In this document: positions 10,423 through 62,154 of the stretch, piece by piece
How positions within the stretch are numbered: the first letter of the stretch is position 1
How the letters are laid out: each line of letters opens with the position of its first letter
Origin: Utricularia gibba
Lineage: Eukaryota; Streptophyta; Magnoliopsida; Lamiales; Lentibulariaceae
Reading direction: 5' to 3'
DNA: 64,000 bases
NCBI GenBank assembly: GCA_002189035.1
Contig: NEEC01000002.1
Span: forward strand, 2,294,001 to 2,358,000
Position numbers and translations under genes: made by a program
The notes under the pieces: generated by a model
What the model was told of the DNA's origin: nothing
The model's input: the letters and a program-made list of their open reading frames with translations, nothing else
The model's database searches: none

Positions 10423-11737
10423 ATGCTTGGGTTCGAGGAAGGCGTCGGGTTCCGCAGATGTGTGTGGGTTAACGGGCCAGTCATCGTCGGGCTGGGCCGT
10501 CGGGGCTGGCGGTGGCGGCAGGACTGAAGGAGCACGGGGTGCCGTTTGTGATCCTGGAGCGCTCAAACTGCATTGCCTCTCTGTGGCAGAACAAGACTTA
10601 TGATCGATTGAAGCTTCATCTTCCCAAGAAATTCTGTGAGCTCCCTGGAATTCCGTTCCCGAGTGATTACCCTGAGTACCCTTCCAAGAGGCAGTTCATC
10701 GAATACCTGGAGGGCTACGCGAAGCACTTCGATATCAATCCTCGGTTCAACGAGTGTGTTGAGTCGGCCAAGTTCGACGAGGCGTGTAATCTGTGGCGGG
10801 TGAAGACTGTTTCCCCAGACGGCGGTATGGCGGAGTATATCTGCCAGCAACTGGTGGTGGCCACCGGTGAGAATGCCGATCCATTGATGCCGGAGATTGA
10901 GGGGTTGAATGAATTCGATGGGGAAGTGATCCACGCCTGCGATTACAGGAACGGCGAAAGATACAGGGGGAAGAAAGTTCTAGTAGTCGGGTGCGGGAAC
11001 TCCGGCATGGAGCTTTCTCTCGATCTCTGCATCCATGACGCGAAACCCGCCATGGTTGTCCGCAGCTCGGTGAGTACATATTTTCCCATATCCCAATACC
11101 TTTCATCCCCTAAACCATCAAAATCTCTAATGGGTTTTTGCTTCTTCCTCTTCAGGTTCACGTACTGCCCAGAGAAATCTTTGGGAAATCGACCTTCGAA
11201 ACAGCTGTGCTCTTCCTCAGATGGCTTCCCATATGGCTTGTAGACAAGATACTGCTTGCTCTGGCATGGATTATCCTCGGAAACGTCGAAAAATACGGTC
11301 TTAAACGCTCCCCAATCGGCCCACTGGAGCTCAAGAACACCCAAGGAAAGACCCCTGTCCTCGACATCGGCGCCCTGCAAAGAATCAAATCCGGGGAAAT
11401 CCAAATCGTCCCCGGAATAAAAAAGCTTTCTCCAGGGGTCGCAGAGTTCACCAACGGCGAAAAGATCAAAATCGACGCGGTGGTTCTCGCCACCGGGTAC
11501 CGCAGCAACGTCCCCTACTGGCTACAAGAAGCAGACTTCTTCACAGAAAACGGCTTCCCAAGATCCCCATTTCCAAACGGATGGAAAGGAAAAGATGGAC
11601 TTTACGCCGCCGGGTTCACTCGGAGAGGAATCGCCGGTGCATCTGCTGATGCGGTGAAAATATCACAAGACATCGTTTCAGTCTGGAAGAATGGCCTGAA
11701 GCAGCAGAAGGGGCGTCGACAAATCGCAACACTGTGA
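10423..11737 (+). CDS. YUC: YUCCA flavin-containing monooxygenase (YUC3/5/7/8/9 clade), apparent 1-nt frameshift
   Basis: Converts indole-3-pyruvate to indole-3-acetic acid, the last step of auxin synthesis, using FAD and NADPH. Two exons: 10423-11069 and 11156-11737 (GT-AG, phase 0). After the start [20 protein letters not shown] the frame enters the FAD-binding motif and breaks: 10489-10491 reads GGG where GGGG would give [17 protein letters not shown]. As written the frame ends at a TGA near 10525; the rest ([20 protein letters not shown] onward) is open in the next frame to 11737. With one G restored the protein is 409 residues, close to family length. Also visible: NADPH motif [17 protein letters not shown] and the conserved [15 protein letters not shown]. 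Clade assigned from CVWVNGP and [12 protein letters not shown], from memory. Confidence 0.9.
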
Positions 11738-13292
11738 TGCACACTTCTGCCGATTCATTCCCCCATTTTTGTTCATACCACATAAGCAGATAGCATTAAG
11801 ATAGTTCTTCATTAGACAGAGCTTAGCTATGTTAACCTCTCCCTGTACTCTCCGGCGAGTTTTTGAATTTTCGCCTGTAAATCGAAACAAGTTCGTTCTT
11901 TTGGGTTTTCCTCAAGTCGGGTTGGATTGCTTACTCTTTCTGGAAGGAGCAAGTTGGTGCTGCTTCCCCATCTCCAGCGGTCCCGTATCTTATCACCGCG
12001 ACGGAAACCGAAAGGACCAATCAGCGGAGCTGCTGGATCTCTTTTCCCAGAAAAAGCAGGGGATATTGTATAAAAAGGAGAAATATCGGGCTTATTAGCG
12101 AATAATGAGAAGTTATGTGGGCCAATTGTACAATAAACAAATAATGGGAGGCCCAATTTAAATACTCTGGCGGGCCTCCAGTGGGTGGGTTGGGGCCCAT
12201 ATATGCTTTAAAAATAATAGGACTGGGCCCAGAAGGGCCACATACTGCAGTTAGTTATAACTGGGCCGGCCTGATAATATTTTCTTTTTTACTTGTTAAA
12301 TTAACTTTTTATTTTTAATTAACCACTGTTTTCAAATCGAGGTTAGATTTAATTCAATTCAAATCCATTATTAATTGAATAATTAAATAATTATTTTTGA
12401 ATGATTTTAAAAAGAGCTCGATCTAAAAAAGAATATAAAGACTTTAGAATGAATTTCACATTAATTACGGACAAGATAAAGAAATAATTTATATAAAATT
12501 ATTTTTTCTATTTTTATGCAAGGTATTTTTTTTAGGATGAAAAGAATATAAAGATATGAAATTTGAATATTCGAATCAGATAATATTGTAGAATGTGATA
12601 ATGATATAATGAAATAATATATTATAAAAAGGGTACTAAATGGAGAATGAAGCAGACCCTCATATTAACATGTCTATGAACCTACTGCTCTACCTATTCA
12701 CGTTACCCTGTCCCTTCTAAACCGTTTGATGAATCACGTGAGCCACGCTGGGGAATTATAATAGCATAGGGTGGGGAGGGCTTTCTCCATTTGTATATTA
12801 AAAATTATTTTTATAAATTAACAAAAAAACAAAAGAGAAAAAAAAAATGCTGAAGTTCGCAGCACGGTGAGCGCATTCCCTTGCCGGTACCGTCTCAGCC
12901 GCTACTCGTCACGGCGGAATGTATCCCCGCCGGTGGGTTTTCTTTGAGCAGGTTTTTGAAAGGTAGAAAGAGGCTACTTTTACGGCTCCGATGTGTTGAA
13001 ACATTCATTTCGTGGGCTGTATGTGAAATTGCGTAATTTTGGAGGCAATTTTTTGTAGTCGGCATTGCTTTTTTTTTTTTGTTTTCTGGAGGTGAGGAAA
13101 CTGAGGGGATCTTCGTTTCTGTTGTATTGAAGGCTGGGCGAAAATGTGCTTTTCTGTGTCGTCGATGAAAATTGCTTTTCTTGGAGTTGTAGGTATTATG
13201 CTTTTTAATGGCGGATGGAGCTGATTCTTGTTTGTAATTTCAGAAATTGACTGAGTATTGAGTACACTGATTTAGCCACTGACGTGTTTGAG
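11738..13292. other. Intergenic: YUCCA 3' region and TRM promoter/5' UTR
   Basis: No independent gene supported. Between about 12115 and 12270 there are several GGCCCA/TGGGCC words (site II-like), probably belonging to the promoter of the plus-strand TRM gene. The 5' UTR and first exon or exons of that gene probably start around 12850-13330; ATGAGTGC at 13293 could open a short first coding exon ending near 13335, but its phase does not join the exon at 13575, so it is left uncalled. Confidence 0.4.
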
Positions 13293-13574
13293 ATGAGTGC
13301 GGGCGCGGGTGCGGCTTCGGGAAGGCTGGCATTTGGTAATCCTCATTGCTTATGATGTCTTTGTGTAAATTCTTCTACTTGTGACCTGCAATGGGAAGTG
13401 AAAGTTAGGCATCTAATGGACAGATTACAGCCTTTCAACAAGTCGTTGTGATGCTTCAGGGATGTGTTCCTCTGGTAACTGTCTGGAACAAGAAGTGGTA
13501 CTGGAGATTTATTGAGCTTACTCTGTTTGTTCATGTGGATGTTTCTTGATGCTTTTGGTTGTTGTGACTTGCAG

Positions 13575-16220
13575 AGTACATCTGAATGCATCCGGAACAC
13601 TCATCCGAATTTCAAATTCGGCGGAATGCCTGTGAAGATGTTGATTGCACAAGAGATGTCTAAAGAAGTGGACTCTGGAGTCCATCAGCATAATATAGTT
13701 GCCAAACTGATGGGCTTGATGTCTGTGCGTTAGCGGAGCATGAGTCATTTGTTCATCCACAGATTGCTGCTTCACGTTGTCAAGGGCAACAAAACAGATT
13801 TTCAGGTGACATTGATCGGAATGCATTCAAAGATGGCCATGATATATGGAAGCAAACCTGGAAATCATCACCATGTAAGGGGAGACGTAGAGGGTCTGAA
13901 AGTGATGAGAGGATGATGGCTCTTGTTGGGAAGAAGTTCTCTGAAATGAAGAGGTTATCTGCAGATGGAAACATTCGTAAGTCAAAGCAATTTGAAGATG
14001 CAATAGAAGTTTCAAGTTCCAATGATAATACATTTCTCAAGCGTCTCCAAGAACCGGATACAGTTTCCTCTGAGCAGCAAAAAGATTGGTGGTCTGTCCC
14101 TCCTCCAGAGCAAAGGCGGATCACTGTTCTTTTTCCCTCAAGGATTTCCAACAACCACAAATGTCCAAATAAGGATGCCATTGTAAATGCAGTTCTTTCA
14201 GAGAATATTAGTACTGGAAGTTCTCATTCTGCAAGCTTGAGCAATTCTGAAAATCCCTTGCAACCAACCCGAATAGTGGTTTTGAAACCAAGCCATCCGA
14301 AGGCAAATGGTGGTATTTCTGCTACTTCTCCACATATTGAACTGTTGAAACAGCCTCGTGATACTCGGAATCAAGAACCAATAGAAGATGCAAAGATTGC
14401 AGGAGAACAAGCATACCATGGCACGCTCTGCAGAGATGAAATTTTGACTTCTTATGATAAGGATGGTTCCTTCCCTTCACCTTTTCAGACATCTTATATT
14501 GACCAGCTTGGTAGCTCTTCATCTTCGCGCTCACATAGTCAGACATCATATTCTCCGGAGGTTTACCAGGTAGCAAAGAAACGGCTCTCTATAAGGTGGG
14601 CTAGGGCGTCAGCTAATGGGATATACCAAGACCAAGGATCTGCTGCGAGAAGCACCAAGTCATTAGGTGAGTTGCTTGCTCTTTCTGAAGCAAAAATGGC
14701 TTCTGTTCCTTGTGAGACGGATGGCTGTTATTCAGAAATGGAGGAACCAAAGCGCCCTGTAATTCATCAAGAGAAAAATGTGGTTGAATCTCCAATAAAT
14801 CTTATGAGGTCAAAATCTGTTCCTGCAATGCCTCCCAAGTTTGGAACAGAGCTGGATTTGGACATTTCAGTTATGAATAATGGAATGCAACATTTTTACA
14901 AGGACAAGGCCAGCTCAAAAAGTGTTAAATCATCCGTTGGGGGTCTGATTTCTAGTTTATTTCCCTTCAAAAACAAAAGATCAGCAATGGAGAAAGCCTG
15001 CAACTCTGGATCCAACGATGAAGCATTATCATTTCATGAGAAACCTTGCAACACATTTGAAAGCTGCAGAGTGAAGCTCCCTGATCAGGAATTGTACACT
15101 AAGCAACGGCCATCAAGTGAATCATCTTTTTCTCTTCAAAATGGTGACACCTCCATGATGTCTCACCTGGTGAGCTTACACTGTTCAGCTATGAATTGAT
15201 GAGTCCTTTTTATTCATCTTCTCCATAGTAAACGGTTTTCCATGGTTTGGCAGGATCAACATTTCCTTGCTAAGCCTAGTTTATCTGGAGGTCATCGTGA
15301 TGACAAGAATCAGCCAAGTCTAATGTCATTGACAGGATCGCCTTTTGGAGATGATTGCACCGGAAGAGATCTTCCAGAATGCCTTAAGCCTAACCATCAG
15401 AGTACGTGATCTGTGTTCCATAGTTGTCTTTTATATTCCTGTTGATGATTTCTTTCTCCGGTGATAATACGAGTACATCGCACTCAGGTGCAAAGCTTTC
15501 CATTGATTGCCGAGGCTCAAACGTGCTCGGTAGATCACCAGCTATTGGAACCATTCCCCGCACCATATCATGGGATGAGCCATGTAGGCAGACAGTCACA
15601 GCTCATCCTGCTGCAGAGCGCTCGAGCACTACTCAAATCAAGAATGAAGAACTAGACTGGGTTTTGCTTGCCAAAGCTTTGCTAACTGGTTCTGGTCTCA
15701 AAGACGGGGGCGCATCTAACTCATATGCTGATAGATGGTACTCTGTCGAGGCCCCATTGGATCCGCTGCTTAGAGACAAGTATATCGATATACAAGATAA
15801 GGAGATGGTGCCTGAGGCAAAGAGAAGCCACCGGAGATCAACCAGAAATCTCGTCTTCGATTGTGTGAATGCAGCATTGTTGGAAATTGCAGGACCAAGG
15901 TCGGATTTAGGACACTGCAACTTGGAAAAAGATCTCTCAGTAGACAGTGTCTCATCCCGTTAGGAGACAGGGTTTTGGAACTTCTGAACTCTTGGTTTTC
16001 TAGAGACGCCCGAAGAATGTCGGACGGATGTGAGAACAGCAACACGGTGGCCGTGGAAGCTGTAGTGAAAGATGAGGTTGTCAGTGGAAGGTGGGCGGAT
16101 CAGTTGATAATGGAGATAGAAGACATGAACAAGGATATCACAAGGACGTTGCTGGAGGATCTGGTCCATGAGGCCGTACGTGAAATGGCTTCTAGTGTTG
16201 AGGAGGAGGCAGTCTCTTGA
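13575..16220 (+). CDS. TRM-type protein (DUF3741 VAKLMGL motif plus C-terminal DUF4378), N terminus unresolved, two apparent frameshifts
   Basis: TRM/LONGIFOLIA-type proteins recruit the TON1-TRM-PP2A complex to cortical microtubules and shape cells. Exons seen: 13575-15169, 15254-15401, 15488-16220 (GT-AG, matching phases). The first carries GMPVKMLIAQEMSKEV and NIVAKLMGL. At 13712-13714 GGG replaces the GGGG needed for MGLD, giving an early TAG; the -1 frame continues open through ALVGKKFSEMKRL, a conserved block of this subfamily. The last exon holds the DUF4378 region (LDWVLLAKALLTGSGL, NLVFDCVNAALLEIAG), then breaks at 15956-15958 (CCC, CCCC expected, SSPLGDRVLELLNSWF) and ends MNKDITRTLLEDLVHEAV in the next frame. 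Both changes are one-base losses in G/C runs. I did not find a secure start codon. Resembles Arabidopsis TRM21 (At5g43880) by position and motif, from memory. Confidence 0.8.
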
Positions 16221-16684
16221 ATGCATCTAACCTCCATTTGTATCTCTGTTAGTTAACCACCCTTTTTCTGTAGGTAAATTTTTATTCATGGCGTTCTTGC
16301 GGCTTCTTCTGTTACTCCCCTGAGTTCTCAAGAAAGCATAACAGAGCAACCAAGAAATGCAAAGGCTCAGAAAATGAGAAATTCCCGGAAATGAAAAAAC
16401 TAAAATGACAATCATGGAAAACCTTAAGCCCCGCTGTAGGATCTTCTCTGTTAGTGCACGCGTCCACCACGCCCTGCGGCTGTGTCAAGGCTGTTGCCTG
16501 CAACCCATTTTAATGACTTGAATTCAATGCATGAGAATTTCCAGTTCAGAAAAATGTGGACCTTGAATGCACTGGGGTTTGTCTCTTGTGCATTCAGCGG
16601 CTCATTCACAATGCATTGCTGGTAACCACCTCTTGAATTCAAGTGACAACACTTTCGAACAGTACTTTCTCCCACGCAGCCCAT

Positions 16685-16693
16685 TCTATAAAG
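16685..16693 (+). promoter_or_regulatory. TATA box of the GDSL lipase gene
   Basis: CTATAAAGA lies about 75 bases upstream of the ATG at 16762, a normal plant spacing allowing a 5' UTR of about 45 bases. Confidence 0.55.
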
Positions 16694-16761
16694 AGCTTCC
16701 ACTCCCACAGCCATCTCCTCAGACTATCGAAGCAGAATCAGTTTCCCTTCATTTCTTCATC

Positions 16762-18239: not shown

Positions 18240-18823
18240 AGCCTAAGATAAAGTCGAATCTCAATAGCCTTTCATCATCGACCTCCATTTCCCTTCGCTT
18301 CTTGGTTGAATTCCAGTTTTCATTTCCCATTTCTCATCAATTGCCCCAAATTTAATAATTTTTAAATTTAATGTCAAAATCTTAATTTCTATTTTTTTCA
18401 CATAACAGACTAATATTAAAATTAACAAAATTTAAACATTATCATTTCAAAACATTACATCCATAGAACAAACTCAAAATAAAAACATTAAGTATTAATT
18501 CTACATAATTTTGAAAAAAATACGAATTGTAATTATACATAAATTTTCAAATAATGAATATAAATATTATTTTTTTGAAAATCATTTATATTAATTAGAT
18601 AAATAATGGCAACAATGCAAACAATTTTCTGGCCTCCAATCCAATGGACAAGTAAACAACTAAGTATTGGAAGAAATGCATGATTTTCATTGTTTTAAGA
18701 AACGCATTGACCCATGACACGTCATCAAAGGCTAGTTAAATGAAAATATGAGAGGGAGAGCTTACAGACAGAGGGTGCAACACAAGTGCTATTGAATTTA
18801 GCTGGTTGGATGAATGGTTCTTG
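18240..18823. other. Convergent intergenic region
   Basis: Lies between the 3' ends of the plus-strand GDSL gene and the minus-strand mS33 gene, so it holds two 3' UTRs and AT-rich spacer. Nothing else seen. Confidence 0.5.
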
Positions 18824-20351: not shown

Positions 20352-20359
20352 TCCTAGAA

Positions 20360-20377
20360 TAGGGCTGTGCATGGATC
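20360..20377 (+). repeat. Left terminal inverted repeat of the hAT element
   Basis: Eighteen bases matching the reverse complement of the right end with two mismatches (positions 3 and 13). Preceded directly by the TCCTAGAA target duplication. Confidence 0.9.
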
Positions 20378-23329: not shown

Positions 23330-23347
23330 GATCCGTGCACAGCCATA
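23330..23347 (-). repeat. Right terminal inverted repeat of the hAT element
   Basis: Reverse complement of the left end with two mismatches; followed directly by the second TCCTAGAA copy at 23348-23355. Confidence 0.9.
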
Positions 23348-36332: not shown

Positions 36333-39038
36333 ATGGCGCAGAGTAATTGGGAAGCCGATAAGATGTATAGATCTTGAACTTTTATTTCGCTTAGATCTAA
36401 ATAATTCATTTCATTATGAATTTAATGCATGATGCTGCAAATTGACACTTGTTGCAGACTATTGACTTTTCATTTTCACCTTTCCTGACCAATGTGACGC
36501 ATGTGTGTATTTACTCTAGTGTTATACACGCTGATTAAGGGTATTTATATTTCTCTATAGGCTTGATGTCTACATTCATGATTATCTGTTGAAGAGAAAG
36601 TTGCATAATTCTGCCAAAGCATTCATGACAGAAGGAAAAGTGGCATCTGATCCTGTAGGTAAGCAATGTTTCTGTGAAGCAGCTCTTCTGCGACATTGTT
36701 TTTGAAAATAACCGTTATCTGTTTTCTGAGTACTTGAATCTGAACTATGTTGTAGCTATTGATGCACCTGGAGGGTTTCTTTTTGAATGGTGGTCTGTGT
36801 TTTGGGATATTTTCATTGCAAGAACGAATGAGAAGCATTCTGAGGCAGCTGCAGCATATATAGAGGTTCGGAAAAATTTTTATAAATGCCTTTGTTTTTC
36901 ATTTGATTAAATGCCATGTGATTTACACACATATACAATTAATTTTAGACACAGCATCTAAAAGCAAAAGAACAGCAGCTGCAACTACACCAGTTTCAGC
37001 TTATGCAGCAGCACAATTTACAGCGAAGGGATCCTAGCCATTCTCCACTGGGCCCCTTGTCCTCTGATGGAATTGTTGGGCAACAATCTGCAAGTTTGTT
37101 AGCAATGAAAATGTATGAAGAACGGATGAAACACCCAAATTCCATGGATTTGGAGGCATCTCTGGGTCTGATTGATCCTAATAGGATGGCACTTCTGAAG
37201 GCGCCATCGAATCAACAAGGGTCAGTTTTCTGATAAAACAACTGACCATCTTTGAAGGGTTAATGAGTCCTTTTCTTCGGTAATGTCTTTGATTCAGACA
37301 AATGATGCAAGGAAACACTGGGAGCATGTCTGCTGCTTTGCAGCAAATGCAAGGGCGCCCTCAGCTTGCCAATGTAATTTATGTTTGATTGTTTCTCTCT
37401 GCTTTCATTTTCTCTTTATTTTGGTTGCAGTGAGACCCAGTGTATACATATTTTCTGTAGGACATCAAACCAGAGGTCAACTTTGGTGGCACACAGAAAA
37501 CGCTGCCTGTGGACCCATCATCTATGTACGGGCAAGCAATTCTTCAATCAAAATCTGGACTTGGCAATGCAGGTCTGCTAGATGTTCGTAGCCCTTTTTT
37601 TCTCTGTAATTGTTGTCAATAAGATGGTTGCGGAAAATAACTTGTCATTCATCTGCTGTTCACTTTCACCCTGTTACTTTTTTAATGTATAATGGAGCGT
37701 TATACTCATTCCAGGGTTAAACCAGGGTGTAAGTGGTCTCCCCTGAAGGGTTGGCCACTGACAGTGAGTTCCTGATCTCCTTGTTTGTCACATTTCCTGC
37801 CTTTTCATGCCAAAAGAAGCACTAACAAAATCTTGTAATGATTTGGCAGGGAATTGACCAACTAAGACCAAATTTGGGTTTACAAATGCAGAACCCCGCA
37901 ATGCAGTCTCAGAATCAGTTTCTTTTGGCATCACAACAGCAACAGGCTCTGACGCAAGCTCAGTCACAGGGGAACATGGGAAACTCTAGTAACTATGGAT
38001 TGGAAGGATTGCAAAGAGGAAACTTCAGCGCAAAAGATGGTCAGCCATCTAGAAATGATGGCTCTATTTGCTCTCCAGCTCAGTCGAATTCACCAAAGGT
38101 TGTGACATTTGTAGATGTTTTTAGTGCTGTAGATGTTGTCTTGTTTTTTTTTCCTGAAAGCTGTTCTATAGCGTAAATTCTTATTATCCATTTTTAAATA
38201 GTGAAGATCTGTTAATGATTAGGATCTTCCTGCATTATGACACGAATGATATTATTTAAAATTGTTACCGAAGGTTTGACTTTGGTAGTATGTTTCTTCT
38301 CTTGTTTTCGCTTCTCCAAGAAAAGTGCTTCAGTTACATATTTGAAACTGTAGAAGTTTGCTTCTTAAGAGTTTTATTTTAACTTAGTTCAAATCATGAA
38401 AGCAGATGAAAATGACACAGATGCAGCAGCCAGCGCCTTCTCGCCAGGAGCAGTTGCAGCAACAACAGCAGATGCAGCAAGTAAGCTGAAATCACAACTC
38501 TCGACCCGTTTATTGATTAATGCCCAAGGGATTGCTAGCCTTCCTGTTTCAAAATGACTTCATTTCAACTCTTGGCTCATACATCTTTTGTTGTTTGTCT
38601 TGAAACAGAATAACAGGAAAAGGAAACAACATTCTTCGTCTGGACCAGCAGATAGTACAGGTACAGGAAATACCACCGGCCCTTCACCCAGCTCACCACA
38701 ATCTTCACACACCCCTGGAGATGGGATGACTACGGCTAGCAGCCTGCAGCATGTGAACATGGTGTCGAAGAATATGATGACATATGGCACTGATGGAGCT
38801 GGTGCATTTGCATCATCCACCAATCAGCTGGTAACCCTCTATTCTAGCTAATGAGAAGCTTGAGGATCAACCACACCCTAATTGATTATGCTCTTCATGT
38901 AGGATGATTTTGAGAACTTCGGAGACATTGGATCTCTGGATGACAACGTGGAGTCCTTGTTGTCGTCTGATGGGGATGCTAATTTATATGGCTCCTTGAA
39001 ACAACCTCTCACGGATCATAAGATGCAGACTTCCAGAG
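36333..39038 (+). pseudogene. LUH: LEUNIG_HOMOLOG corepressor, 5' half only (LUFS plus Gln-rich region), WD40 repeats missing
   Basis: LUH/LUG are Groucho/Tup1-type corepressors. Exons: 36333-36364, 36561-36658, 36756-36865, 36949-37220, 37298-37373, 37461 to about 37570, 37715-37763, 37850-38098, 38405-38480, 38609-38830, 38903-39038. They encode the LUFS/LisH domain ([40 protein letters not shown]), the Gln-rich middle, GLPLKGWPL, NNRKRKQHSSSGPA and DDFENFGDIGSLDDNVES. The exon ending at 39038 should splice to the first WD40 exon. A candidate acceptor at about 39260 gives only VSFIE-like residues, then the similarity stops. No WD40 exon appears before KRP at 41717. There is also a one-base loss at 37740-37743 (CTCCCCTGAAG; one more C needed for GLPLKGW), giving an early TGA. 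Confidence 0.85.
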
Positions 39039-41616
39039 GTGGTTCTATTTAACTCATTGGCTGGCTTTGGACTTACCTGCCTACCTACCCTTGTTGTAGC
39101 ATCTTCTTAATAACCGTGCTTCTCCATGCTTTTACCCTGAACCTCGTTGACTCATTCCTTCACTTTCGTTTGAAGCTAACTACCTTTTCACCCATGGAAA
39201 CCTTGCACTGAATCTGTATGATATGTCTCACAGCAAAGTGGAACTTTTTCTTTTTCAGTGTCTTTCATTGAAGGTATGCATTCCTTTGTAAAACACTATG
39301 AAACAGTCGAATGTATTCGAATGCGAAGGTTATTCGTGTCATGCTTATGCAACTTAGCTGCATGCTTGCTTCTGATTATCTGCTCTCTGAAAGATCACTA
39401 TCAGATCCAAGTTTTAAACTTGGGGCCGTACGACGTGTTACGACATCGTCTGACTGTTGAATTGGGGAGAGAGATTAGGGCACGGATTGACGCCAATGGC
39501 ATTTTTTAAAAAGTTCGGTATTCGGGCCACAATTCCCGCGCCTCTTCGGTCGTCTTTTTGGTTTCTACGACGATTGTCGGAGACATGGAGTGGATGGAGC
39601 GGAGGATGTTTCCGATGCGTTTGTTTTTGCCGGTAATTGTTCATTCTCGGTCAACGTTGTCTTTTTTGGTTTCTTGTCTAAGGCGAACGCCTGGATCTGT
39701 TTGTGTTGCTCTAGCCTAAGGTATTTCTTTTTCGTGTTTTTGTGAATCGCAGTTGGTTCAGCGTCACCGGAATGGCGGAGGAGCTCCTTTGTGGCTGTCG
39801 ACAATGGTTATCTGCGTGCCACTGTTTCGTCGTAACGAATAATAGACAGCGGCCGTTACACACGCCTAGCAATTGGGGCTGGGGAACAAGTCTCTCACAT
39901 CTGGGGTTCACCAGTGTTCATCTTTGATTGCGCAGGAAAAAAGACGAAGGATGTGCGTGGGGTCAGGGGCCTGCCTCGAACAACGGGCAGTGCTGCAGCC
40001 GCAGCAGAACCGAGGAGAAGAAGGTGAGTGAGTTTCAGTGGAGTTGCCTTGACATGTCGAGCACTTAGATCCATGACAGGATACGGATGCGAATAACATG
40101 AATGAGTAATGATGGGGCGGGTTGGGGCGTCGTCATCATCTCGCTTGTGCTTTTTGAATTCGTTGCTTGCATGATTCTGATTCAACACCAAACGGCACTA
40201 GCTTTTTGGCGGGAAAACTACTCTGAAGATTCTCCCTTCCTGGGGAGACGAGCTACGTGCGGTATACAGTGCAGTACAGGTACTGCTCTCTCCCTCAATA
40301 ATTTGCTTTGCTCACTGTGCACTTGCCATAATCACATGAAATTTCCTTGCCTGCCACCACATGCTTGAATAATCAAAGTTTTTGGGGGGGTTCCAATGGA
40401 AAACCCTTTGAAATCCACTTGAAAAGTTTGGCAAAGACAAAAGATCATTGTCCCATCCCCACTATGTACGCCTTTCTTTCTGCGTGTTGACATTGGAGAA
40501 AAGGGGGTGTAGCATCACCCCACAGTGGGAGAAATCAAGAAACCGGCTCATGGCCACACTACTCCCCCCCTGTCCCATGATTTTTCACCACATCTACTCT
40601 CAATCCTTGTTTAAACAGGAATGACAGCAGAAGCAGAAGCAGGTGCCGGTATTTGTGGCGAAAAGCCAAAGGCAGTGAAGGCTGAGTGCACCTCGAAAAG
40701 AAGAGCAGCAGCATTTTTAAAAGACTCGGTGTTTCAGGCAGGCAGGGTTTTTTGGGGTTTGGGGTTTAGGGTTTTGGTTTGGGATCAGGGCTCTCTCCCA
40801 TCTCATCTCATGTCACCTCCACATGTTTCAAATTCTAAGGATGACATGACTTTTGAGAAGGTGGGGAAACCCCCTTTTCGTTGGTAGTAGATAAAGTTGA
40901 GAGTTCTTAGGTTAAGGAATCTTTTCCTCCATTTTCAATACCTCATTAGAATCAACACTTCATTTATCTCAATCATATTAGATATAAGATTATTGAGATA
41001 CCCAAAATTTACGTAAAAAAAATATAATATTTAATATGTTAGTGAAATTATTTTATATTTTTTATTATAAAAATGTGTATTTAGTTCCACTCGTAAAATA
41101 GGTTTCTAAAATGATATGTATCAAATATAATTAGTCTTCAAGATTTAGGATCCGTTTGATTAGCTGGAAGAGAATAAATGGATTTAATTTTATTTGGGAT
41201 AAAAAAATACTTCATCAGTTAGATAGTAAAAAATCAATTTTTCTTTTGGGGATATTTTTATTATTTGTTTCATAATTTTAATGAATTATTCCTTATTCAT
41301 ACATAATTTAACCACCAACTAATTAAAAAAATTAAAAATAAAAAAGTTCATGTATTTTAGGCGTAGGTTATAGGCCTTCAATTTTGTAGCCCACTTTTGT
41401 AATAAGACAAAATAGGGAAGACATTTGGGAAATTTTATCTTTAGCTTTTGTAAAAATAATAAAATAAAATAAATTAGTTGTCAAGGTGGGTCCCACATTG
41501 TGAAAATTAGCCCTAACTTTTAGGGAGAAACCCTAATCACGGAATTCCCAATTTCTTTTCCCCTTTTAGTGCCCGCTCGCCCTCCCTCCCTCTCCCTCTT
41601 TCTCTCTTCTTTCTTT

Positions 41617-43399: not shown

Positions 43400-44412
43400 A
43401 TGCATCATCAGTCACAAGAGTGCTGGAATGAAGCAGGTTTAGCATTTGACCACTGCAGTTCCTAGTTCCTGGAACATCTGAGCAGGTGGCTGCTGTTAGT
43501 GATCTGTAGAATACCGGCCGACCGAGGTTGCCTCCCTCAGCAATCCCGGAGTCAGTAGATTGGCCACATAATGTAGAAGTTAGGTTCTTTTTTCACTTGG
43601 TTTCCTCAGTGGACATGGCTGTATGAATCTAAGTGTCAGTTGTTAAAATTTGAATTTCCGAGGCAGGTGGATGGATGGATAGAGACATTGAAGTAAAATG
43701 TTGGCCCGAAAAGGACACTGTTTGTGGCCGGTTGTGGGGACACCCCAATTCTCAACGAAGGCCTTCAGGCCCACTGATGCCTGCACGGCCCACGGCATCC
43801 GTGTTGCTTTCTTGAGGCCCAAATTAGGCCCATAAATGCCCCGTTAGTTGACTATCTGTTGTAAGGCCCATGTGTAAGATCATTTAGGCTAAAGTGCATT
43901 GTCTTATCTTCGTTTTATATGATATTATTTAATTTAATTATTCAATTCTCATAATTTTTATGCTTTTTCTTTTTACAAAATTTTTTTTAAACAAAATTAG
44001 AAAAACCTCTCAATTTAAACACATTTCTTCTCTCGTCTGTAATTAATATAAGATACTGTAAAAAAACTCATTACCTTACAAATACACAACTTTCATCCTT
44101 CTTTTTGCTTTAATCCTTGACGGTCCCTCCCTGGTCTGATCTCGACGGTTAAATCGAGGAGACAAACACTAGTGAATTGGGAGGACATTTTTGCTTTCGT
44201 GGGGTGGAAGATGAACTGTTTCCTTTCAGTTCTGGATCTGGCAATTCTCATGGCATCAGCCAAAATGCAGTAGTAACTTAAACATGGGGTTACAAGGAGC
44301 TGGAGCTCAGGATATAAATGGACTCCAACTCACCAGTCAGTCAGCAAGAAGAACAAACAAGAGTGGTGGCATGAAAAGGGCCATGGGATCAGTCCATCAG
44401 ACTCCTCTCCCA
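43400..44412. other. Convergent intergenic region KRP / callose synthase
   Basis: Lies between two 3' ends. It contains an unexpected GGCCCA cluster (listed separately) and AT-rich DNA. An open frame at 44284-44601 on the plus strand is antisense to the callose synthase last exon and is not called. Confidence 0.5.
43745..43875 (+). promoter_or_regulatory. GGCCCA (site II-like) cluster between convergent genes
   Basis: Five GGCCCA words within about 120 bases (AGGCCCACTG, CGGCCCACGG, GAGGCCCAAA, TAGGCCCATA, AAGGCCCATG). In this window such clusters otherwise lie upstream of genes; here the flanking genes converge, so the cluster has no obvious target. It may drive an unseen non-coding RNA, perhaps antisense to one of the flanking genes. 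Confidence 0.45.
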
Positions 44413-47400
44413 CTACTCCTTGTTCCTCGAGGATCTGCCTTTTCTATGCCCACCAAGAATGCGGGAAATCTGGAGACCTCGGCTGAAAGCTTGGTTGAAG
44501 AGCATTCGTGTCTGGAACTCGGAGACAAAGGGGAACCACGCCAGAAACGCCACCGGCGTGAAGAGGAACAGCCCCATAACGATCTCGTAGCCGCGAGCTA
44601 GAGTTTTGACAGATCCCCAGAATCCAGCCTTCTGCACTACAGGCTTGCATGCTTGTGCGATCTTGTGACAAAAAAAAAAAAAAAAAAGTCATTTGAAGGC
44701 TAGCAAACAGAGAATGTAAAAGATGCAGTGGGAGAGGATGTGGGGGTTCAACTCACCAGAAGTAAGCCCCAACCAGTAGGCATGAAGGCAAGCACACAGA
44801 CTACTATGTCTTGCATGGTCATGTGAGGGAGAGCGATCAGGATTGCAAGGATGGAGACGAATGTGACGAAGATCAAGCCCTTTATGAGACGGAACACTAA
44901 CTGAAAATTGGCACTGAATTTCCTTCGTCCGACTGAAATCGTCTGTGAAATAGAGGAATCATTGATCATTATCCCTAACAAGCACCAGAAAAAGTCATGC
45001 CCCTAGATGAAAAAAACAATTCACTCACTTTCAAGACAAAGAGAATCAGGAAGATCACCAGCCAGGATATGCCATACACCTGCAATGGATTGATTATATA
45101 GTGCATTCCTTGAAAGATTATGATAAAGAAGCTGGTTGAGGTATAAATACATGACAGTTCACATACCAGAACACTTTGGTTGTTCTTGGTGAGGTTCAAG
45201 TGGTACACAAGCCCGTACTGATAGATGAAGAACCTTAATGATAAGAGTATCTCAGCAGCGATACCACGTTTCCCGGAATGACGGAGATGATCTTGCTCCT
45301 CTTCCCACCAAGATTCCCAACTTTTCTCAGGGGGACACCGATGCCTCCTCTGTTACTGATCCACTTATTCCAGTCCGTCCAATCATCAACTATTTTTTGC
45401 CATTCGAATCCGGAAGGATTGAAGAGAAAGGGAGCAAAGAGCCAGGTTCCAACCATAAACCACATAGAAACGGTAATTAAAATGTATGCAACGGCACCTC
45501 TGTATGACTGACCAAATATTTGGTAAACAATTAGTAGCAGCATCAACTCAAGGCCTTGACAAAGTGACTTCGAGAATACAGCCGGTAGTTATCAGCAAAC
45601 TTCGCATGGAACACCACGAACCCTCTACCGGTAGGCCTATATTGAGCACCTCCATGAAGCAATGTCCTTCCATAATAATGGGTCTTAGTTCCGAGTGAAA
45701 ATGTGAAAAAAACTGGTGCCAGCTGCAGCTGCATTAGTATGAATTCACTCAATGCTGTACGGAAACCCCTCTCCAGACCAATTTCCATCATCATGGGAAG
45801 AGCCATCAAAAATCCAATTTGGACGAAAGACTGAGAAGCTAAAGCAACTTCAACTGATTTATTTTCCCTAATCGCTGGCTGCATGAGTATGCCCTTCTCA
45901 AGACCACTGAGAACAAGATAAAGCCGACCATAAAGGAAAACATAAACTGTGAGCACAGTTACCTGCCATAAGAGGCACAGTTTTCAGGAACAGGATTAGA
46001 TACTGAAAAGTAGATATTCTGAAGCTTGTAAATCGTACCAAGGTACTGAAGTAAAAGCCAATGGTAGTAAAGTAGCATGACAACATCCTAAAGAAGTCAA
46101 AGCGATGGCCCAGCCTATACAAATCTCGGCTTAATGTTTGCTCCCCATTCCCATTGCCAATTTTTGCTTCAAAGAGAGAGATCTGATTAAGACCGACATC
46201 CCTTCCCTTGCCAACTTGAATATACTCATGATGGGTTACATTGCCTTCCCGGAGAGTAGAATTGAAGCCTGCACAAAGAATTTCCATATAAGTCACGCAG
46301 CATTCTAAATACCAAGAATTTGAATGAATTTTGAAAACATCATGAACGTACCTGCAAATATATCCTCACTCAGGTTGATAATCTTGGAGGCTTTGCTGAC
46401 TCCTCCTCGTGTAAGGTGAAACAGTCTATCAAAGATATCAGGATGCCCATAGTGAAACCGAACTCTGCACGAAGAAAAAACACGTTTCTGTAAAAAACTG
46501 ACTAGAAATGGATGCATAACATATTGAGATAACTCACTTTAGGGGGTTCGCTAGCAACCTCTGGCCTATGGTAACAAAACTTGTCTCTTGATTAGACATA
46601 AACCAAGCTAGGGAAGAAACACTGCATAGAAAGGAAAAACATTTTTTCTCTTGGTTGCCATATGATCAAGAAAAACATTTTTCAGCTGAACAAGGAGATA
46701 ATTAGAGGACCTTCCAGTGAAGATATGCTCCCTTAGTCCAAGAATTGAAGGATATCTCACATCATGCTTTTTAAGGAATTCTTGAAGCAAGTTTCTCATT
46801 TTCAGAGCTTCTTCCATATAGTTATCCTGTAGGTCATTTTTTAAATAGTTAGTTGAATGAACGGGCATAGGAGCAAAAGTTAACAACATGCCTGATTCAT
46901 ATCAATTGTCTGCAATCCTTCTCCACGTGTAAAAATTATCGCATGATTCTGATTCTCAGGTTTCCCTTCACCCAAGATAGCTGGGCCTGGGAGTTTTATA
47001 CGGTAGATAGTCTACCAAAGCCACCAAAAAAAAAAAAAAAAAAACTCAGTAGAACTTTTAAATAAATAGCATATATGGATGTGCATTAACTCTTGAAATA
47101 CCCACAAGGTGTGCAGATAAAGACGCATCACATTTTATTGTTCAGTACTTCAGATTAAAATACAATTGATACATGTAGAGCAAGCTAATGTTTCTCATAC
47201 AGGCAAAATAATCATGGAGAATCACGGAAATATATTGACCATGCAACAATTCTATGACATGGAAATGCAGAAAGTACATTAAAAGACTCGGCCCAACCCC
47301 TCTGGTTATTGCCCTTACCATATATATATATATATATGTTATTCTAGAGCTTGCTAACCTGATCCAGATTCTGTCCCGGTTCAGAAGAGTTTGACTTTGG

Positions 47401-50400
47401 CAATGCCGCCTTTACCAAAGTCGAGTAATAAACCTTATCATTCACCTTCTTACTCCTGTCTTTATTGGGTTCTTCAACTTCATCAATATATGCTACGCGC
47501 AGAGAAGGATACCTGTTCAGATAGTACTGAAAAATTGCATCATTGCAGACAACAGACAAACACAAACATGACGGGTTTCAAGATGTACGTTGTCATTAGT
47601 CTTAATATGTCCTGTGCTCTCGAGTCCCCTGAGCGTTTCTGGATCCCATATATTTGGCAAGACACAACATAAGTAAACTTCATGTCAGCCACCGCTTGGC
47701 ATTGGGTCCAGAGTGACCTTTCCCCTTTCATCTGATCCTCGTTCAACTCAATGGCCTTGTAGCCTTCCATTAGATCTATTTATATTACACAATATAATTT
47801 GATCAACATATGATAATAATTTTTACAAAATAACAGTGAAGTGTAATCAGTTTATCATGCAAATGTTATCGTCGAAGATGCACTACCATCATCCTCAGCC
47901 ATATCGAGAAATGCTTGGAGCTCCAAAGCTTTACGATAATACATCATTCCTCTCACTGCAAAAATTTCCATGATTCAAAACTCAATATGAGAAACCTAAT
48001 AATACAAAGAGAAACCCGAAACTCAAATTAACTGAAGAGTGGATTCGTTAATCATTCAGTAAAAGTGAACCTTCATGAATTCTAATAAAAAACATAGAGT
48101 TGATATCACATGCAGAACAGTGGAGATACTGTAATAAAGGAGAGAGCGTGAAGGAGGATACTTTCAGTTTTATTTACAACAGTGACACCCTTAATAGTAA
48201 GTTTTCATCTCTAATAAGGAATCCATCATCATCCTGCCGTAAGTAAGTCTGGATTTCTCATCGAAACTGACATGAACAATTGACAAAAAACACACTCGGG
48301 CAACAAGCAGTCCAAAAAACATCTAAAATAAGACACTCAGGATGCCTAAAAAATTGATAAATAAAAAGGTAAGGCCAGCAAATCAGAGTCTCGGGATTCA
48401 AGAAGAACGTACCAGTTCGTGTCAGAGTTTGGCCTCTGTATGATGCCCAAAGACGTAGCTGTTCTTCTAACTCATTTGAGCTCCTAAGTTCTTCTAACTC
48501 ATCTGAGCCCCTAAGTTCTTCACTGAGACAGTTGACACGCTCCAGAAAATTGGTCCATTCATCTGTACCGCAGTATTAGAAGATGGCAGCAGAGAAATCA
48601 TACAAGGGAAAACCATAAATCATTATTTTAAACCTGGGAATATTTTCTGCAAGTAAAAGAGAATAGAGACACCATCTTCATTTGGCACTTCCAGCTCAGG
48701 CAGTGAAAAGAGAACTTCCTCCTTGTAATATGGCGTTAAAACACTACATGCAGTGATAGCTTGCTAAGTCAAACATTAAAGGAAAGAAGAGCAACCACAG
48801 GATCATTACATGCAGAGGAAGTAGTTTGGAAAACCGAACCACTTTTACATGTATAAGAACATTGGGATGAGTCACATGAAAAAACGAAACGAGAGAGCAA
48901 GAAAACTGCACTTACGAAAAAGAAAGCATATTCCGAACTTTGGGGGATGTTGGCATATCCATAAACAATGAGTTAGCAAAGAATGACATGCGCCTTCGAG
49001 CCTCCAAATTCGATGGTACATCCATTGCAGATTCTTTCACCGTCAACAACAAGTACAATCTCTTGATCTGCGAAGAGAGGGATCCAACACCTTGAGACAG
49101 AATACACTCTTTAAAAACTTTAGTGTAAAATCTCGTTCTAGTGTCCCTTTACCTTTTCTTTCCAAGCTTCAGATTCAGGAGCAGGGAACTTGATGGCCCC
49201 AGCAGATGCAAACAATTGATACTGTTGTTCAAGAGGGATCATACCCTCATGTCCAGATCCACCATGAATTGAATCCAACAAGCTATTAAGAAGAGAGGGA
49301 CACAAAATAAAAAATAGCACTCCAATCTATAATAAAAAAATGCAATAACCTTGGTTAGAGAACTTTACTCAGATAGAAGATCTTCCATCATTATATCTCT
49401 TGTCACAACTTCTAGCATGTCCTGGAATAGAATAACGACTTCATCTCTATCCTCCTGTTTATTCTCTAGCTGAGAAAAAGAAGAACGATCTTGTGCCATC
49501 AAGACAATCAGAAAACCTCCCGAATGAAGAATAGGATGCAGCAGCTCAAAAAAGTGTCATACCAGGTATTTTACAAGCTTAACAAATAGATCATATAGAC
49601 TTGGAAGCGCACTTAGCTTGTACTCGGATAACAGGTCATCCTCCTTAATATGCTCGTCAACTCTAGAAAATATGAACTCGATAACCCTGGTGGACACAAA
49701 AAGGTTACAAGTACTGAAAAAATGAGTGGTAGAAACAGGAACATATAAAAAAAACCTTACTTTTTTTCTCTTTGGCCACGAACTAAGAATTTCACAATGT
49801 TCTTAAATGATGCGTAGCACTCACAGACAGCTGAATACATATAATTGTCAGATTTTATGCGCTTTTTCAGTTCGCTTTGCTTGCCACTACTGTCTTTGGC
49901 CATATCCACCGCTATTGGAATCTACAGGATTCAAAAACCCAGTTCATCATACAAATTTTTGTAGAGATACAATGACCAATAAGATGTATCTATGATGAGT
50001 TCATGAAATTTGAAACACAAATTTCCACAATCCCTAAAGCCCGAACTAGAACTTGATAGCTAGAGAAAAAAGATTGGACCGAGCCAGACCTTGCTGGCAA
50101 GCAGAAAAGGAGGCCACTGCATCAGTTCCAAATCACGGTCAGCCCAATAAGGAACCAGCAATAGATCCATTTCTCTATCAATGGAAAAAAAAAATGAAAA
50201 AACAGCCAAACCAACTTTTAATTTGAACATGCACATGTCTTTTTTGGCACAAAGATTACCGGTTACTTATGAGATCCTCCTCTCTAAAACTTGAAATAAT
50301 TTTATTCCACAACTGGGCAAACCTTGCAGCTGTCTTTTCTTTGGTGGATGGATTCTAGGATATATCCACAAAAAAGAGGATAAATTTTTATAACTATATA

Positions 50401-53400
50401 GTTTCATATCATCTAACTTAGTAAAATGAAGCAAAATGGAAACTAAATAATATATCACCTCATCAAACTTGCGAGAAAATGTGGCTTTGAATCCCTTTTT
50501 CTTTCCTGCCTCTGATTTCTCCACTGGTATCAAACAGGCATTGAAAGCACCAGGAAGGGACTGAAAACGAGATCTAAGCATTCCCAGTGTTCGAATCTAC
50601 AATGCAAAGAAACTAGTATTATACAATATTCGAATCTACAATGCAAAGAAACTAGTATTATACAATATTCGAATCTACAATGCAAAAGCCACGAAAATAA
50701 TACTGTATCATTACATGGATGCACAAAGAACATAAACACTACAATAATGAAGCCAGCATAACAACAATAACATTTTTTTTTTTTTTGCGCAGGTTTCTCA
50801 CCTCTCCCAAGCGCCGAAACGCACCATACACCCCTCCGAAAAGAGTTGAAAATATAGCATACCAGATTTGTGAATCCATGAAATAAACCTGAGAGAAAAC
50901 TAAATCATGTTGATACAGGAAGGGAAGGAGCAGGAGGGGCGGGGGGTGCAGACCAAGGTACATACAAGAATAACAGGTGCCCAGAGTGCAATCACAACAC
51001 CTATGTTATTCTTAGCTGTTATCAAAGAATTTTATTAGCAATGGAATACTCATGCCATCGGTAAGTTGATAAATGAACTCATTGAGCTTTTACCTTGGGG
51101 GAAAAACTCGTGCCATTGGTAATTTGATATATGAACATCCATAATAGCTTTTGTTGGGCCAACAAGTGGCTTAATCTGAAATTGATTGCTATGTAACTAG
51201 GATGAAATTGGTCACGCCATAATAAGGATGATATGCAAACCCATAATACAGACCTCAATATAAAAACTGAAAGCCAACTTTGTGATGAGGAGTAGGAGCC
51301 AAAATGATGTATACCTAAATAAAAGTTAGTAGACGTAAGCATAAATTTGTCATGTCTACTCTAAAATATTACTTAGTTTGGCTGCAGGGCTTACTTGAAG
51401 AGAGACAACATGCTTTCATGCATTCCTCTTCCAACATAAAGTCGTGGCTGTAAGAAATTACAAAAGGAAAATGGAACTTTGCTCTATGTGTTTGTCAAAA
51501 TTTACAAAGTATAGAAGAATTACATTTACCTGTGACCACCACATCATCAGAACCACAATCTTGTAATTGGAGCTTTCAAGGAATCGACGAAAAAAAGGAA
51601 AAAGAAAGAGCAACCCAGCTAGCATGTTTGGGGAAAGGTAGATAACAACAGCCAGAATGAACAATGAAGGAGAACTCGATCCGTTGCCAAACCAACTTTT
51701 GATAGTTTGAGCAAATCCAGGAGGGTTTTCCCATGTATAAGCATAAGTAACGGGAAGAATGATGACCCAAGCAGCGGCTGACACAACCTTCAGAAGATAC
51801 CTTAATTGGACATGGCGTGTCATGCTCCGTCTAGCTTTCCAACTAAATATTAAATCCAGAATTGCTGCAAAGAATAAAGGATGCTTCAGGAACACAATAC
51901 CCCATCAAGTGTCATCATTGAGAAATCTGAGCAGAACACAATGTAGGCAACAACACCAATTGCATACAGGTGCAACAAAGTTATCATTTTTTACTAGCTC
52001 ATGCAGAATATTGAGTTAATTGCTTATCAAAGCGATAACCATTGCAAGATCATACAAGTTTTGAACATGCACGAACAGAATCTATAACAATCATACCTTG
52101 GCCAAGTTTCAATATTGCAGCAGTTATAAAAATGCTTAGTACTTTCTTGAAAACATCACCATCAAAAATTGCACTTGGATTACCCGATCCATTCCAAGCA
52201 ACAATGACCATAGCCTTGATAGATAACCAAGGTTCAAATCAACATCAAATAATATGAAATTAAAGGTGGAATAGACAGTACAGATTCAGATCATAACAAC
52301 CTGCAAGCATAATATGAAAAAACTCCACATCCTGTCAAAGCTTCTAAATATATGCCAAAATGATCTGATCTCAACAAAGTTAACTTTCCCCATCCATGGA
52401 CCTTTAGCAGGCTGAGTTTCCTGGGACCAAAAAGCAGCATCTTACATTAGACAATTTTGTGGCGGGTGAACATAAAAGATAACAAGGATAATATCCTCTT
52501 TCAACAGCAAACTAACCCCATTAATTTCATCCTGAAATCTGCCCACATGCTTACAGAAAAAATCAGCATCAGCACGCATGGGCCACCCAATATGAAAACA
52601 ATCCACGGACCTAAAATATTTGAAGATAATTCAGTAAAATCAGCGCATCTAACCATATTTTACACAATCCACACATACCAAAAGTATTCATTCAAATCAT
52701 CATAATTTCTCCAATGAGAATGTTTAGATTTCGCCCTTTTGCTTCTTGCAGCCTCCTGCAGACCAAAATATCAATGAAAAAAGGGAACAACCTCTCATCA
52801 TTCAAGGCAGCACTGGAATATAGAATACCCGAGCAATCACTTCATAAATTGGAGTGACAACTTTTTTCAGAAATGCCTCTTCCTCTCCTCCATATGCCGG
52901 TTTAACATTTTCACCAGTCATGGGGCTGACATTCCCCGCAAGCATGCCATAAAGTTCAAATGCCATCTGAAAAAAAATAATAAAAAAAGTTTAGCAAACT
53001 TTCTTGCAGCATAAAATATTCACAAGGAAGATGCTCAAATATATTGACAGATCACAAGTCCGTTTTGCAACAAAAAGTGCCTCGGGATTGTACTCTTAAA
53101 CACTGGAAGCTACGAGTTCTGACACATACTGAACCATGGATTCTAATTTTGGGTATACGGAGGTGGTGAAAGATTCATGTTATCCCCTTGCAGAAGAATG
53201 AAAAACAATTGCTTCCACATGTCAAAAACAGAATAATGTTTATACGTAACAAGAATTAGAAAGCCTACATTATGATAGATGTAGCAAAGGCATTCTGGCA
53301 TGAATCTTAAGTTTGCAGCTTCCCCCCATATTAAAAGGTACAGCCCCATGTACAACAGTTTACGTTGCTGCACCTCCTGCTGTATGGTGGGTAACCTACA

Positions 53401-56011
53401 AAACGTAAATGAACAACTTTCCATATAGCTATGCACACAATGAGAATAGAGAACAAATTGCAATTCCATTTCCAACAAGCAATTTGCCATTGAGATCATT
53501 ACACTCTTAGAAATAATAAAACTTTGAACACTGATCATGAGAGATGTAAACTCAATTACAAAGTAACTTTTTAACATTCACTAATGGGTTAGAAACACAC
53601 CAAAGGCTGCTATCACGACCCAGATACTTGCACCAATTCTTGTAGTTCTTGAACAGCCTTTTCATCACCTCATCAAGAGCACGCTGATCCAACTACCAAA
53701 GAAAAGGCTAATCTAATTAGTTATAAGAGACCGCAATAAAACACACTCACCATGAATGAAATGGGGAGGCAGATACACTCAATCAAACCACTCAAACTGA
53801 AAAAAAAAAAAAAGAAAAACAATGGAATGCATCATGCGAGGCCCTTTTTTGATATCACATGTAATTCCTGAAGTATGCTGCTTCCATCACACCCAAAATC
53901 TCAAATGCTTCTTCAGGATAAGGACTCGCAAAAAACCAATATAAAACAATACACAAAGATCATAACAGTAAGTTCATGACTCCAAACACACAAAAATGAA
54001 GAAAGAACTTTCATTCAGGAGAGCATATAACATTTAAGGCATCTGTTGAAGAGATACTCTAACACAAAATGTTCACTGAGGCAAAATTTTAGGAGCGGAA
54101 CCTTGGGCTGCTGGTCCAGGTTTGGGAATTGCCGTATGTGTACATTTGCCAGTAGCAATATAAGATGCTCACGTTGGTTTGCCACATTGTCTTTCTGCAC
54201 TCAAAAAATAGCAGTAAATGCATGCTTTGCTTCTTTTTTTTTACATTAAACTTTAAATTAGGACTAGGAAAATTGAAATTTATAAACTTTAAACTAGGAC
54301 GAAGAACTTTAAATTGAAGCGAGAAAAACAAACATGTATGAGCTTTAGGGATTATAAAGGCAAAACAGTTAATGTCCACCTGAAAACCAAACATAGCTTG
54401 AAGCCAGTCGAGAATATCTTCATCCTTTTTCTTTTTATAATCCTTCGGCCAAGTAAGACCTCTTGTATTACGCAGTGCATGCACCGCAGCTTGGATCTAA
54501 ATAGGAAATATCAGCTCAAACAAATAGAATTACAGTATATCAACGGGAATTATTGTAGTTCATTTAGGACCTCTGGATATTTCATGATTGCTTGATTTGC
54601 ACTGTCAGGATCAAGGGAAGAATATTATATGGCACATAAATTTCCGTCTTCTCTGCAACCTTATCATGCGTTTCCAATATCTATGCACACAAGTAAACAT
54701 CTCTTTAGACTGAAAAAAAGTAGAAATGAGTTTCCAATACTAATCACACTCGAGGAAACTTTTCATTATGCTGAAAACAAAAAACAGTAGACAAAAATAT
54801 AATTTAAAAAATCTTAATCTGATAACCTCACGGTCAACTTCCACAGATTGCGTTTGATTGACAGCTTTCAAAACCTCAAAGAGAACATTGGCTGTTTGGT
54901 ATGCCTTTGTTAGCTGAGCCCTGTAAAAAAACACAAGCCATGTTACATGGAGTATAAATTCAACATTCACTGGAGGGCAAAACATTTAAAAAAATTACCA
55001 AAAGAAACCCACCGATCAGCTTTATCAGAAGCATTCTGCAAAGCTTGAATATATTTCTTGTAGTAATGCTGATAAAAGCTTTGCATTTCACGCGCGTCAC
55101 TCTTTTTAACTCTTCCCTTTAAGGTGGGATCGTTCTCCTGAAAGGAGAAAATATCTTAAAAACCAACATATTAACCCACCATGCATGTTGCCATCAACCA
55201 TCATCAATGAATTTAGCATAAACCACTCTCTATATATAATACTCTAGCACTGAAGAAAATCATTATTTAACTGTAGAACCATGATTAACTTTTGATCTAG
55301 ATGTATTAACCAACGTACCGTACTAACATGGCCTACTCATCTTAAATATTACTCGGCAATGTCTGAATTACAGCTCGTTAAATGTTAGAATTTACCCTTT
55401 CTAAACGCTGCAGAAGAGCTGTTTTGAATTGCCGAACACCACGCCCACTAGAATTTGGGTCCAAACGATGTGCTTTTTCAAAAGCATAAAACCTGCCTGC
55501 AGAAATAAAAAAAAAAAAAATCTTAGAATAGACATAACAGTAAAACACAGGTCATCTTAAGAAAAAAAATATGATACTGATCGCTTCTGCTGACTCTTGA
55601 GACCCAAGTAACCGCTTACTATATAACTGGGTTTTCCAAGCCTTGGCATTCAAGAAAAAAAAAGGTGTGGACAACATCATTAGTACACATGAATTCAAAT
55701 GTGATGGGTTGTGTACAGTCGTAACCTGGAACTTCATGCTATAGATTAAGAAACGAGTAAAACAAGACTCCGGCACAAAATAAGAATCTGAGCGTACACC
55801 GCTTAACTAAAGACTCACATAAGTAAGCAACCCGTGGGTTGCTGGGCTCGACTTCATTCGCAACTCGAAGGATGGGTGCAATTTCCACCAGAGACGAAGG
55901 AATTACTTCACTATCAAAGATGGATTCCCCCATATTTCCCATAGTCTGAGTTCGTGTGAGCCGCCGCTGAAGCTGCGGATTCCTCTGTGACATTTCCCCT
56001 CTGGACGACAT
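44413..56011 (-). CDS. CALS: Callose synthase (glucan synthase-like, CALS1/2/3 type), three apparent 1-nt frameshifts
   Basis: Plasma-membrane 1,3-beta-glucan synthase that makes callose at cell plates, plasmodesmata and pollen walls. More than 35 exons over 11.6 kb. Start ATG at 56011 ([20 protein letters not shown], then [16 protein letters not shown]); end at 44413 ([18 protein letters not shown]). Seen in order: Vta1/FKS1-dom1 region ([28 protein letters not shown]), N-terminal membrane segments ([19 protein letters not shown]), the cytosolic loop, glucan synthase core ([54 protein letters not shown]) and C-terminal membrane segments. Frame breaks of one lost base lie at 54615-54617 (NILPLDPD), 45553-45556 (VKGLEL) and 45330-45334 (GVPPEKSW). 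A GC-AG intron begins at 46891. Several exons in the middle were recognised but not bounded. Confidence 0.92.
48464..48517 (-). repeat. 27-bp tandem duplication inside a callose synthase exon
   Basis: Two adjacent 27-bp copies (48464-48490 and 48491-48517) with three mismatches. They encode ELRGSDELE and ELRSSNELE-type nonapeptides where remembered family members have a single copy (ELRAREDLEEELRLW). In frame, so the product gains nine residues in the cytosolic loop. Confidence 0.85.
50592..50686 (-). repeat. 39-bp tandem repeat carrying a duplicated splice acceptor
   Basis: Unit CGAATCTACAATGCAAAGAA... of 39 bp, two full copies (50592-50630, 50631-50669) and a 17-bp partial copy (50670-50686), identical or nearly so. 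It sits at the intron side of a callose synthase exon. On the minus strand each copy contains the pyrimidine-rich acceptor TTTCTTTGCATTGTAG followed by ATTCG (the third copy has a slightly altered version). Confidence 0.88.
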
Positions 56012-60684: not shown

Positions 60685-61039
60685 ACACGAAAATTGCTTT
60701 CCCCAAATTTTAAAAAAAGACCGCCGAATTCACCAGTTCATATTGACAACAGCTTGAATTGCGATGAATCAGGAAAACGGGTAGAGGAATCCATGAAGAA
60801 CGACGATGGATTAAAACCCTAGCCTAGCGTGCGTATGAACTCGGAACTACTGGCCAGACGATCAGGAAGGCCGAAGGCCTCATCTGCACTTCTGATAGCC
60901 CACGCTCCGGTCCAACTTCTGGCCGGTTTGGGCTGGGCCTTAAATAAAACGGCACCATCCCCGATCCACCTGGTTATCAACAGGGTTGGAAAACAGTTTC
61001 TCTTCAATCGGCTATCACCGCCGTTCGAAATCGATCTCC
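60685..61039. promoter_or_regulatory. Shared divergent promoter of the KHZ and DUF573 genes
   Basis: Only 355 bases separate the two start codons, which point outward. The region includes TGGGCC-like words near 60895-60945 (TAGCCCACG, TTGGGCTGGGCC) and no TATA box that I can support. Both genes encode nuclear nucleic-acid-binding proteins, so co-expression is plausible. Confidence 0.6.
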
Positions 61040-62154
61040 ATGGCCAAAAATCGCGATCCCCAACCGGCGAATGAAGCTACTTCGGAAGAGGAGGAATCTG
61101 AAACTGAATCTGAGTCTGAATCTGATTCAGAGGGGATCAAACCCCGGCCCTGACGAAAGGCAGATCTGAACCGTTAAAAGCCCAGCCGCCGCCGCCGCCG
61201 CAGCACACAAACTCCGATGACAGCGAATCGGGATCTGATTCTGAGTCCGATGAATCTAGTGACGATGAGGTGCCTTCTCCACCTAAGCCCGTTGCCGATG
61301 TGCAGAAGCCCAGTTCCACGAAGAGGCCCACTGCTGTTCAGGCAAGTTCGCCTAAACCTTCAACTCCATCTTCAAAATTGACTGGTGTTAAGCGAGCCGT
61401 GGAAACAAATGGTTTAAGTGATAAGGATGTGAAGAAGAGTAAGAACAAAAGCGAGACATCGGTCGATACTGATAAGGCAAACGACTCCAAAAGGCCTATG
61501 TTTCAAAGGATTTGGAGCCAAGATGATGAAATTGTTGTGTTGAGAGGGATATTTGATTATGTGGAGGAGAAGAAGGCAGACCCTTATATCGAAATCACCG
61601 CTTTTCATGATTTTATCAAAAAGAAATTGCAGGTTACCGTGAATAAGGACCAGCTGAGGAGTAAAATCAGATCACTGAAGCAGAAATTTACAAACAACAA
61701 GAGCAAAGAAGTGAATGGTGAAGATCGTGTCTTTTCCAAGCCACATGAACATCTGGTTTACCAGTTATCCAAAAAAATATGGGGAAAAGGCGACACGCAA
61801 ATCTCAGTTGGTAGTCCCAATCCCAAAGTGGTAAAGCAAGCGAAAAAGAAGGAAAAGAACTTGCCTGAGCACAACAGCGATGGTGCAAAACCAGAGGAAG
61901 TTGCTAATCCTGTTAAAACAGGTACGGATTCGAGTGCAGTCAACAAGTTTCGCACCTTTGGAGCAGCTGAAAGCATGGAAGAGATGATTCAGAGGCTTGG
62001 GACTGAGATGTTTGAAGGGGGGAAAGTGATGGCAGGTAGTAAAGCATGGATGAATCTCAAACAAAAGGAGATGGAGATGTACTTAGAGACACTGCAGGTG
62101 AAGATGGATAGGACTAAGCTGGTTCTGGATGCCTTGAAGTCGGGGAACCTTTGA
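61040..62154 (+). CDS. Storekeeper/GeBP-like DUF573 DNA-binding protein, apparent 1-nt frameshift
   Basis: Plant-specific transcription regulator family (GeBP, storekeeper). Single exon. The ATG at 61040 opens MAKNRDPQPANEATSEEEES and an acidic Ser/Glu/Asp-rich stretch, then meets TGA at 61151-61153. The downstream frame begins in the same low-complexity region (TPALTKGRSEPLKAQPPPPP, SESGSDSESDESSDDE) and runs to 62154. One base lost in the C run at 61142-61145 accounts for the shift; with it restored the protein has 371 residues. The DUF573 domain covers MFQRIWSQDDEIVVLRGIFD to LVYQLSKKIWG, followed by a lysine-rich linker and a C-terminal helix (MEEMIQRLGTEMFEGGKVM) that may form the family's leucine-zipper-like dimer region. 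Confidence 0.88.

Follow-up and report, generated by a model that had tools for sequence, protein, structure and literature searches.

Published work on long-read sequencing provides the closest parallels to the broken reading frames described here. In PacBio CCS and ONT 2D data, indels concentrate in homopolymers, with G/C prominent in deletions and A/T in insertions (Weirather et al. 2017, PMC5553090). Nanopore sequencing underestimates homopolymer length, more severely for C/G than for A/T, and the effect grows with length and is dominated by deletions, while runs shorter than five are mostly called correctly (Delahaye and Nicolas 2021, PMC8486125). At the level of a finished plant genome, a polished ONT assembly of rice still carried about 1.06 errors per kb, of which about half were single-nucleotide, and 1,475 wrong gene annotations, with frameshifts resulting from one-base deletions (PMC7736813).

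The Utricularia gibba sequence analysed here resembles each of these cases in part. It shares G/C homopolymer deletions with the PacBio CCS and ONT 2D data, although those were seen in reads and ours in the consensus of a plant assembly (PMC5553090). It follows the same C/G and length trend as nanopore data, but includes a few losses at runs of two (PMC8486125). Frameshifting one-base deletions are likewise common to the rice assembly, whereas the coding errors detected here are all single losses, our method being blind to substitutions (PMC7736813). Deletion at G/C runs is a published error bias, and the present case is an ordinary artefact, useful as a warning.

One-base losses in six genes

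The window, meaning the whole 64-kb stretch that was analysed, lies mid-contig (G000:C451:2294001-2358000) and contains nine frame changes of -1 in six genes, all at G/C (Table 1). A first-pass annotation had reported eight of these as single-base losses in otherwise clean frames, and direct sequence reading recovered all eight: each is one base short overall, at or next to a G/C run, and the frame is open and conserved on both sides. The ninth, in the subtilase gene, was absent from that list; here I9, PA and Peptidase_S8 lie in ORF 804-2879(-) and fn3_6 lies in the other frame, ORF 433-855(-). The annotation had also placed nearly all losses in runs of at least three bases, which is too strong, since G/C is indeed found at every site but at three of the eight no more than one or two bases of the run remain: one G each at 13712 (TTGATG) and 54615 (TTGATC), and GG at 45553. 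The DUF573 loss, assigned to 61142-61145, shows as a one-base change of frame, but its position is certain only to about 25 bases; the GeBP-like_DBD domain is carried by ORF 61126-62151, and the acidic start, upstream, is read in a frame that closes at 61153. The absence of an excess of other damage held up, as the frames are clean with no surplus of stops or other indels, and a partial check of the genes that had been called intact found the Pfam domains of KHZ, GDSL and ADH in place.

Table 1. Genes with one-base losses, and a transposase relic, in window coordinates
Feature	Position	Strand	One-base loss	Remarks
Subtilase gene	433..2879	-	near 813-830	one frame change (-1); Pfam domains and frames
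YUCCA-like flavin monooxygenase	10423..11738	+	10489-10491	GGG remains, in FAD-binding motif
TRM-like gene	13600..16220	+	13712-13714, 15956-15958	DUF3741 and DUF4378
hAT transposase relic	20800-22880	+		many in-frame stops; Dimer_Tnp_hAT domain
LEUNIG-homolog-like (LUH) gene	36560..39052	+	37740-37743	C2 paralogue comparison
Callose synthase	44400..55300	-	45330-45334, 45553-45556, 54615-54617	
GeBP/DUF573 gene	61040..62155	+	within ~61128-61153	

Comparison within the same genome shows that paralogues hold the frame at four sites, those of YUCCA and LUH and the callose synthase sites 45330 and 45553. In YUCCA, alignment with four paralogues places the -1 change at one position, and a fifth paralogue (L083) is itself broken a little upstream. 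FMO-like and Pyr_redox_3 domains are found by Pfam downstream of the YUCCA break, where differences from the paralogue on contig C2 (90% protein identity) are distributed over the three codon positions as 16/7/57, a pattern that shows selection still at work beyond the break. A genome search for a near-identical second copy of window positions 10300-10700 found none. The LUH paralogue on C2 is in frame, has one extra base where the loss occurs and ends at the same place. At callose synthase 45330 and 45553, frameshift-aware alignment gives a change of -1 each against paralogues that read through, and the Glucan_synthase domain is divided between two frames. Similarly, DUF4378 is divided at TRM 15956, with its parts 6-76 and 106-166 in different frames. 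For TRM 13712, callose synthase 54615 and DUF573, the basis is reading frame and motif only, the callose synthase site being assigned by frame only.

The same defect in other gene families

The survey was extended to the GRAS family, which is mostly single-exon, and a genome search returned 70 matches. Frameshift-aware alignment against intact relatives gave 21 one-base losses in 13 of about 40 genes and one ambiguous gain, in a count that leaves out contig-end duplicates and L045, apparently a true pseudogene; 24 GRAS genes are intact over 40.8 kb. Breaks in L033, L037 (its second break), L040 and L046 were rejected as errors, as these genes look split by introns. The density of losses in the window (nine in roughly 20 kb of coding sequence, a rough estimate) does not differ from that in GRAS (21 in 57.6 kb; P 0.36). 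In HSP70, a check of five short stretches found three losses in three genes, one each on C496, C451 and C304/C241, all at G/C runs. Among the genes broken in the survey are cytosolic HSP70 genes and several DELLA-like members of GRAS. The defect in the window is part of a genome-wide phenomenon and is not local.

Two of the HSP70 sequences (L087 and L088) are identical across 1741 bases on C241 and C304 and have one frame loss in common; C241 is a 31-kb contig and probably a redundant copy. The common loss fits a reproducible error, but it fits a real loss as well.

Dependence on base and run length

All 21 of the GRAS losses are at G/C, though G/C runs make up only 49% of the coding runs of at least two bases in these genes. 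A/T runs of at least three bases outnumber G/C runs in GRAS coding sequence, and zero losses were assigned to A/T. With the run length of each loss assigned by hand from paralogue alignment, and ambiguous for some, the loss rate at G/C runs is about 0.07% at two bases, 0.1% at three, 2.9% at four and 8.7% at five, reaching 1/9 at six and 5/5 at seven. Among runs of at least four bases, 17 of about 301 G/C runs are short compared with 0 of 434 A/T runs (Fisher 2e-7).

Duplicate contig copies of one locus

Some loci are represented by overlapping copies at the ends of contigs, and a comparison of such copies shows 0-1 substitutions against 1-10 gaps, of which many span one base in a G/C run. For example, L023 and L035 have 0 mismatches and 4 gaps, L035 and L044 have 0 mismatches and 5 gaps, and L014 and L015 have 1 mismatch and 10 gaps in 4.1 kb. 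In the last pair, the GRAS frame is cut to 412 aa in L014 and kept at 615 aa in its twin L015. In addition, L044 is without one G that is present in both L023 and L035, and the resulting context, TTGATCC, is the one left at window position 54615. The contig-end copies also hold some A/T gaps and multi-base gaps, and coverage at these ends may be lower than in the mid-contig window.

Origin of the broken frames

We give a probability of about 0.96 to the reading that consensus errors broke these frames, in a long-read assembly whose G/C runs are under-called by one base. Long-read consensus would drop one base from a G or C run with a probability that climbs steeply with run length, and because of this steep rise, coding sequence with long G/C runs would be struck most. 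Systematic homopolymer under-calling was the interpretation of the first-pass annotation, and it is supported since all three of its predictions were found, namely that the defect recurs elsewhere, that it depends on run length and that duplicate copies disagree. The artefact reading is a strong inference from sequence comparison rather than proof. We infer that the nine mid-contig sites are themselves errors and that PacBio or nanopore consensus was their source, and the living plant probably carries intact versions of all six affected genes.

Paralogues are present for YUCCA and LUH (both on C2) and for callose synthase, as real and independent pseudogenisation after genome duplication would require if paralogues were to cover the lost function. 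However, every loss is of -1 and at G/C, and the signs of a pseudogene that were sought at the window genes (accumulated stops, mixed indels and relaxed selection) were not seen there. What real decay looks like is exemplified by the hAT relic in the window, with stops in every frame. On this reading, cytosolic HSP70 genes would be lost as well, together with several DELLA-like GRAS genes. The single type of damage, the selection that persists past the YUCCA break and the implied death of HSP70 thus make this explanation very unlikely. It is equally improbable that a subset of the nine losses exists in the plant's own DNA, in genes that are tolerated broken or rescued at the RNA level.

Replication slippage increases with run length, so true allelic or somatic indels produced by it at G/C runs, for instance in a mutator background, would show a similar rise. 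Yet slippage should also yield gains and strike A/T, whereas here no clear gain is seen and, in GRAS coding DNA, A/T runs of at least four bases remain untouched. Moreover, duplicate copies that are gapped with almost no substitutions are unlike real alleles, which would differ mainly by substitutions, and we regard slippage as slightly less credible even than pseudogenisation. Losses that are real in the DNA and corrected in mRNA or by ribosomal frameshifting would account for a single point, the conservation of the frames on both sides. The full-length frame is nevertheless present at matching sites in duplicate contigs and paralogues, and we know of no precedent for a system of mRNA or ribosomal-frameshift correction of such losses in plant nuclear genes; its probability is negligible. 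Consensus under-calling of G/C runs therefore remains the preferred explanation.

Consequences for annotation

The biological meaning of the broken frames is ordinary. A false frameshift affects roughly one in three of the GRAS genes surveyed in this assembly, and therefore gene counts, as well as claims of pseudogenes and gene loss, would be wrong until the assembly is polished. Claims at risk include, for example, loss among DELLA-like GRAS or HSP70 genes.

Other features of the window

A point against the artefact reading is that long G runs partly survive in the window, which contains a run of 16 G and two runs of seven bases; the 16-G run, at positions 7809-7824, is apparently non-coding. 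In the LUH-like gene, a domain search found no WD40 match downstream, and both this gene (36560-39052) and its C2 paralogue (L092) stop before any WD40 region. The YUCCA and LUH paralogues on C2 are about 18 kb apart, in G000:C2:541000-562000, an arrangement that would suit a duplicated counterpart of the window.
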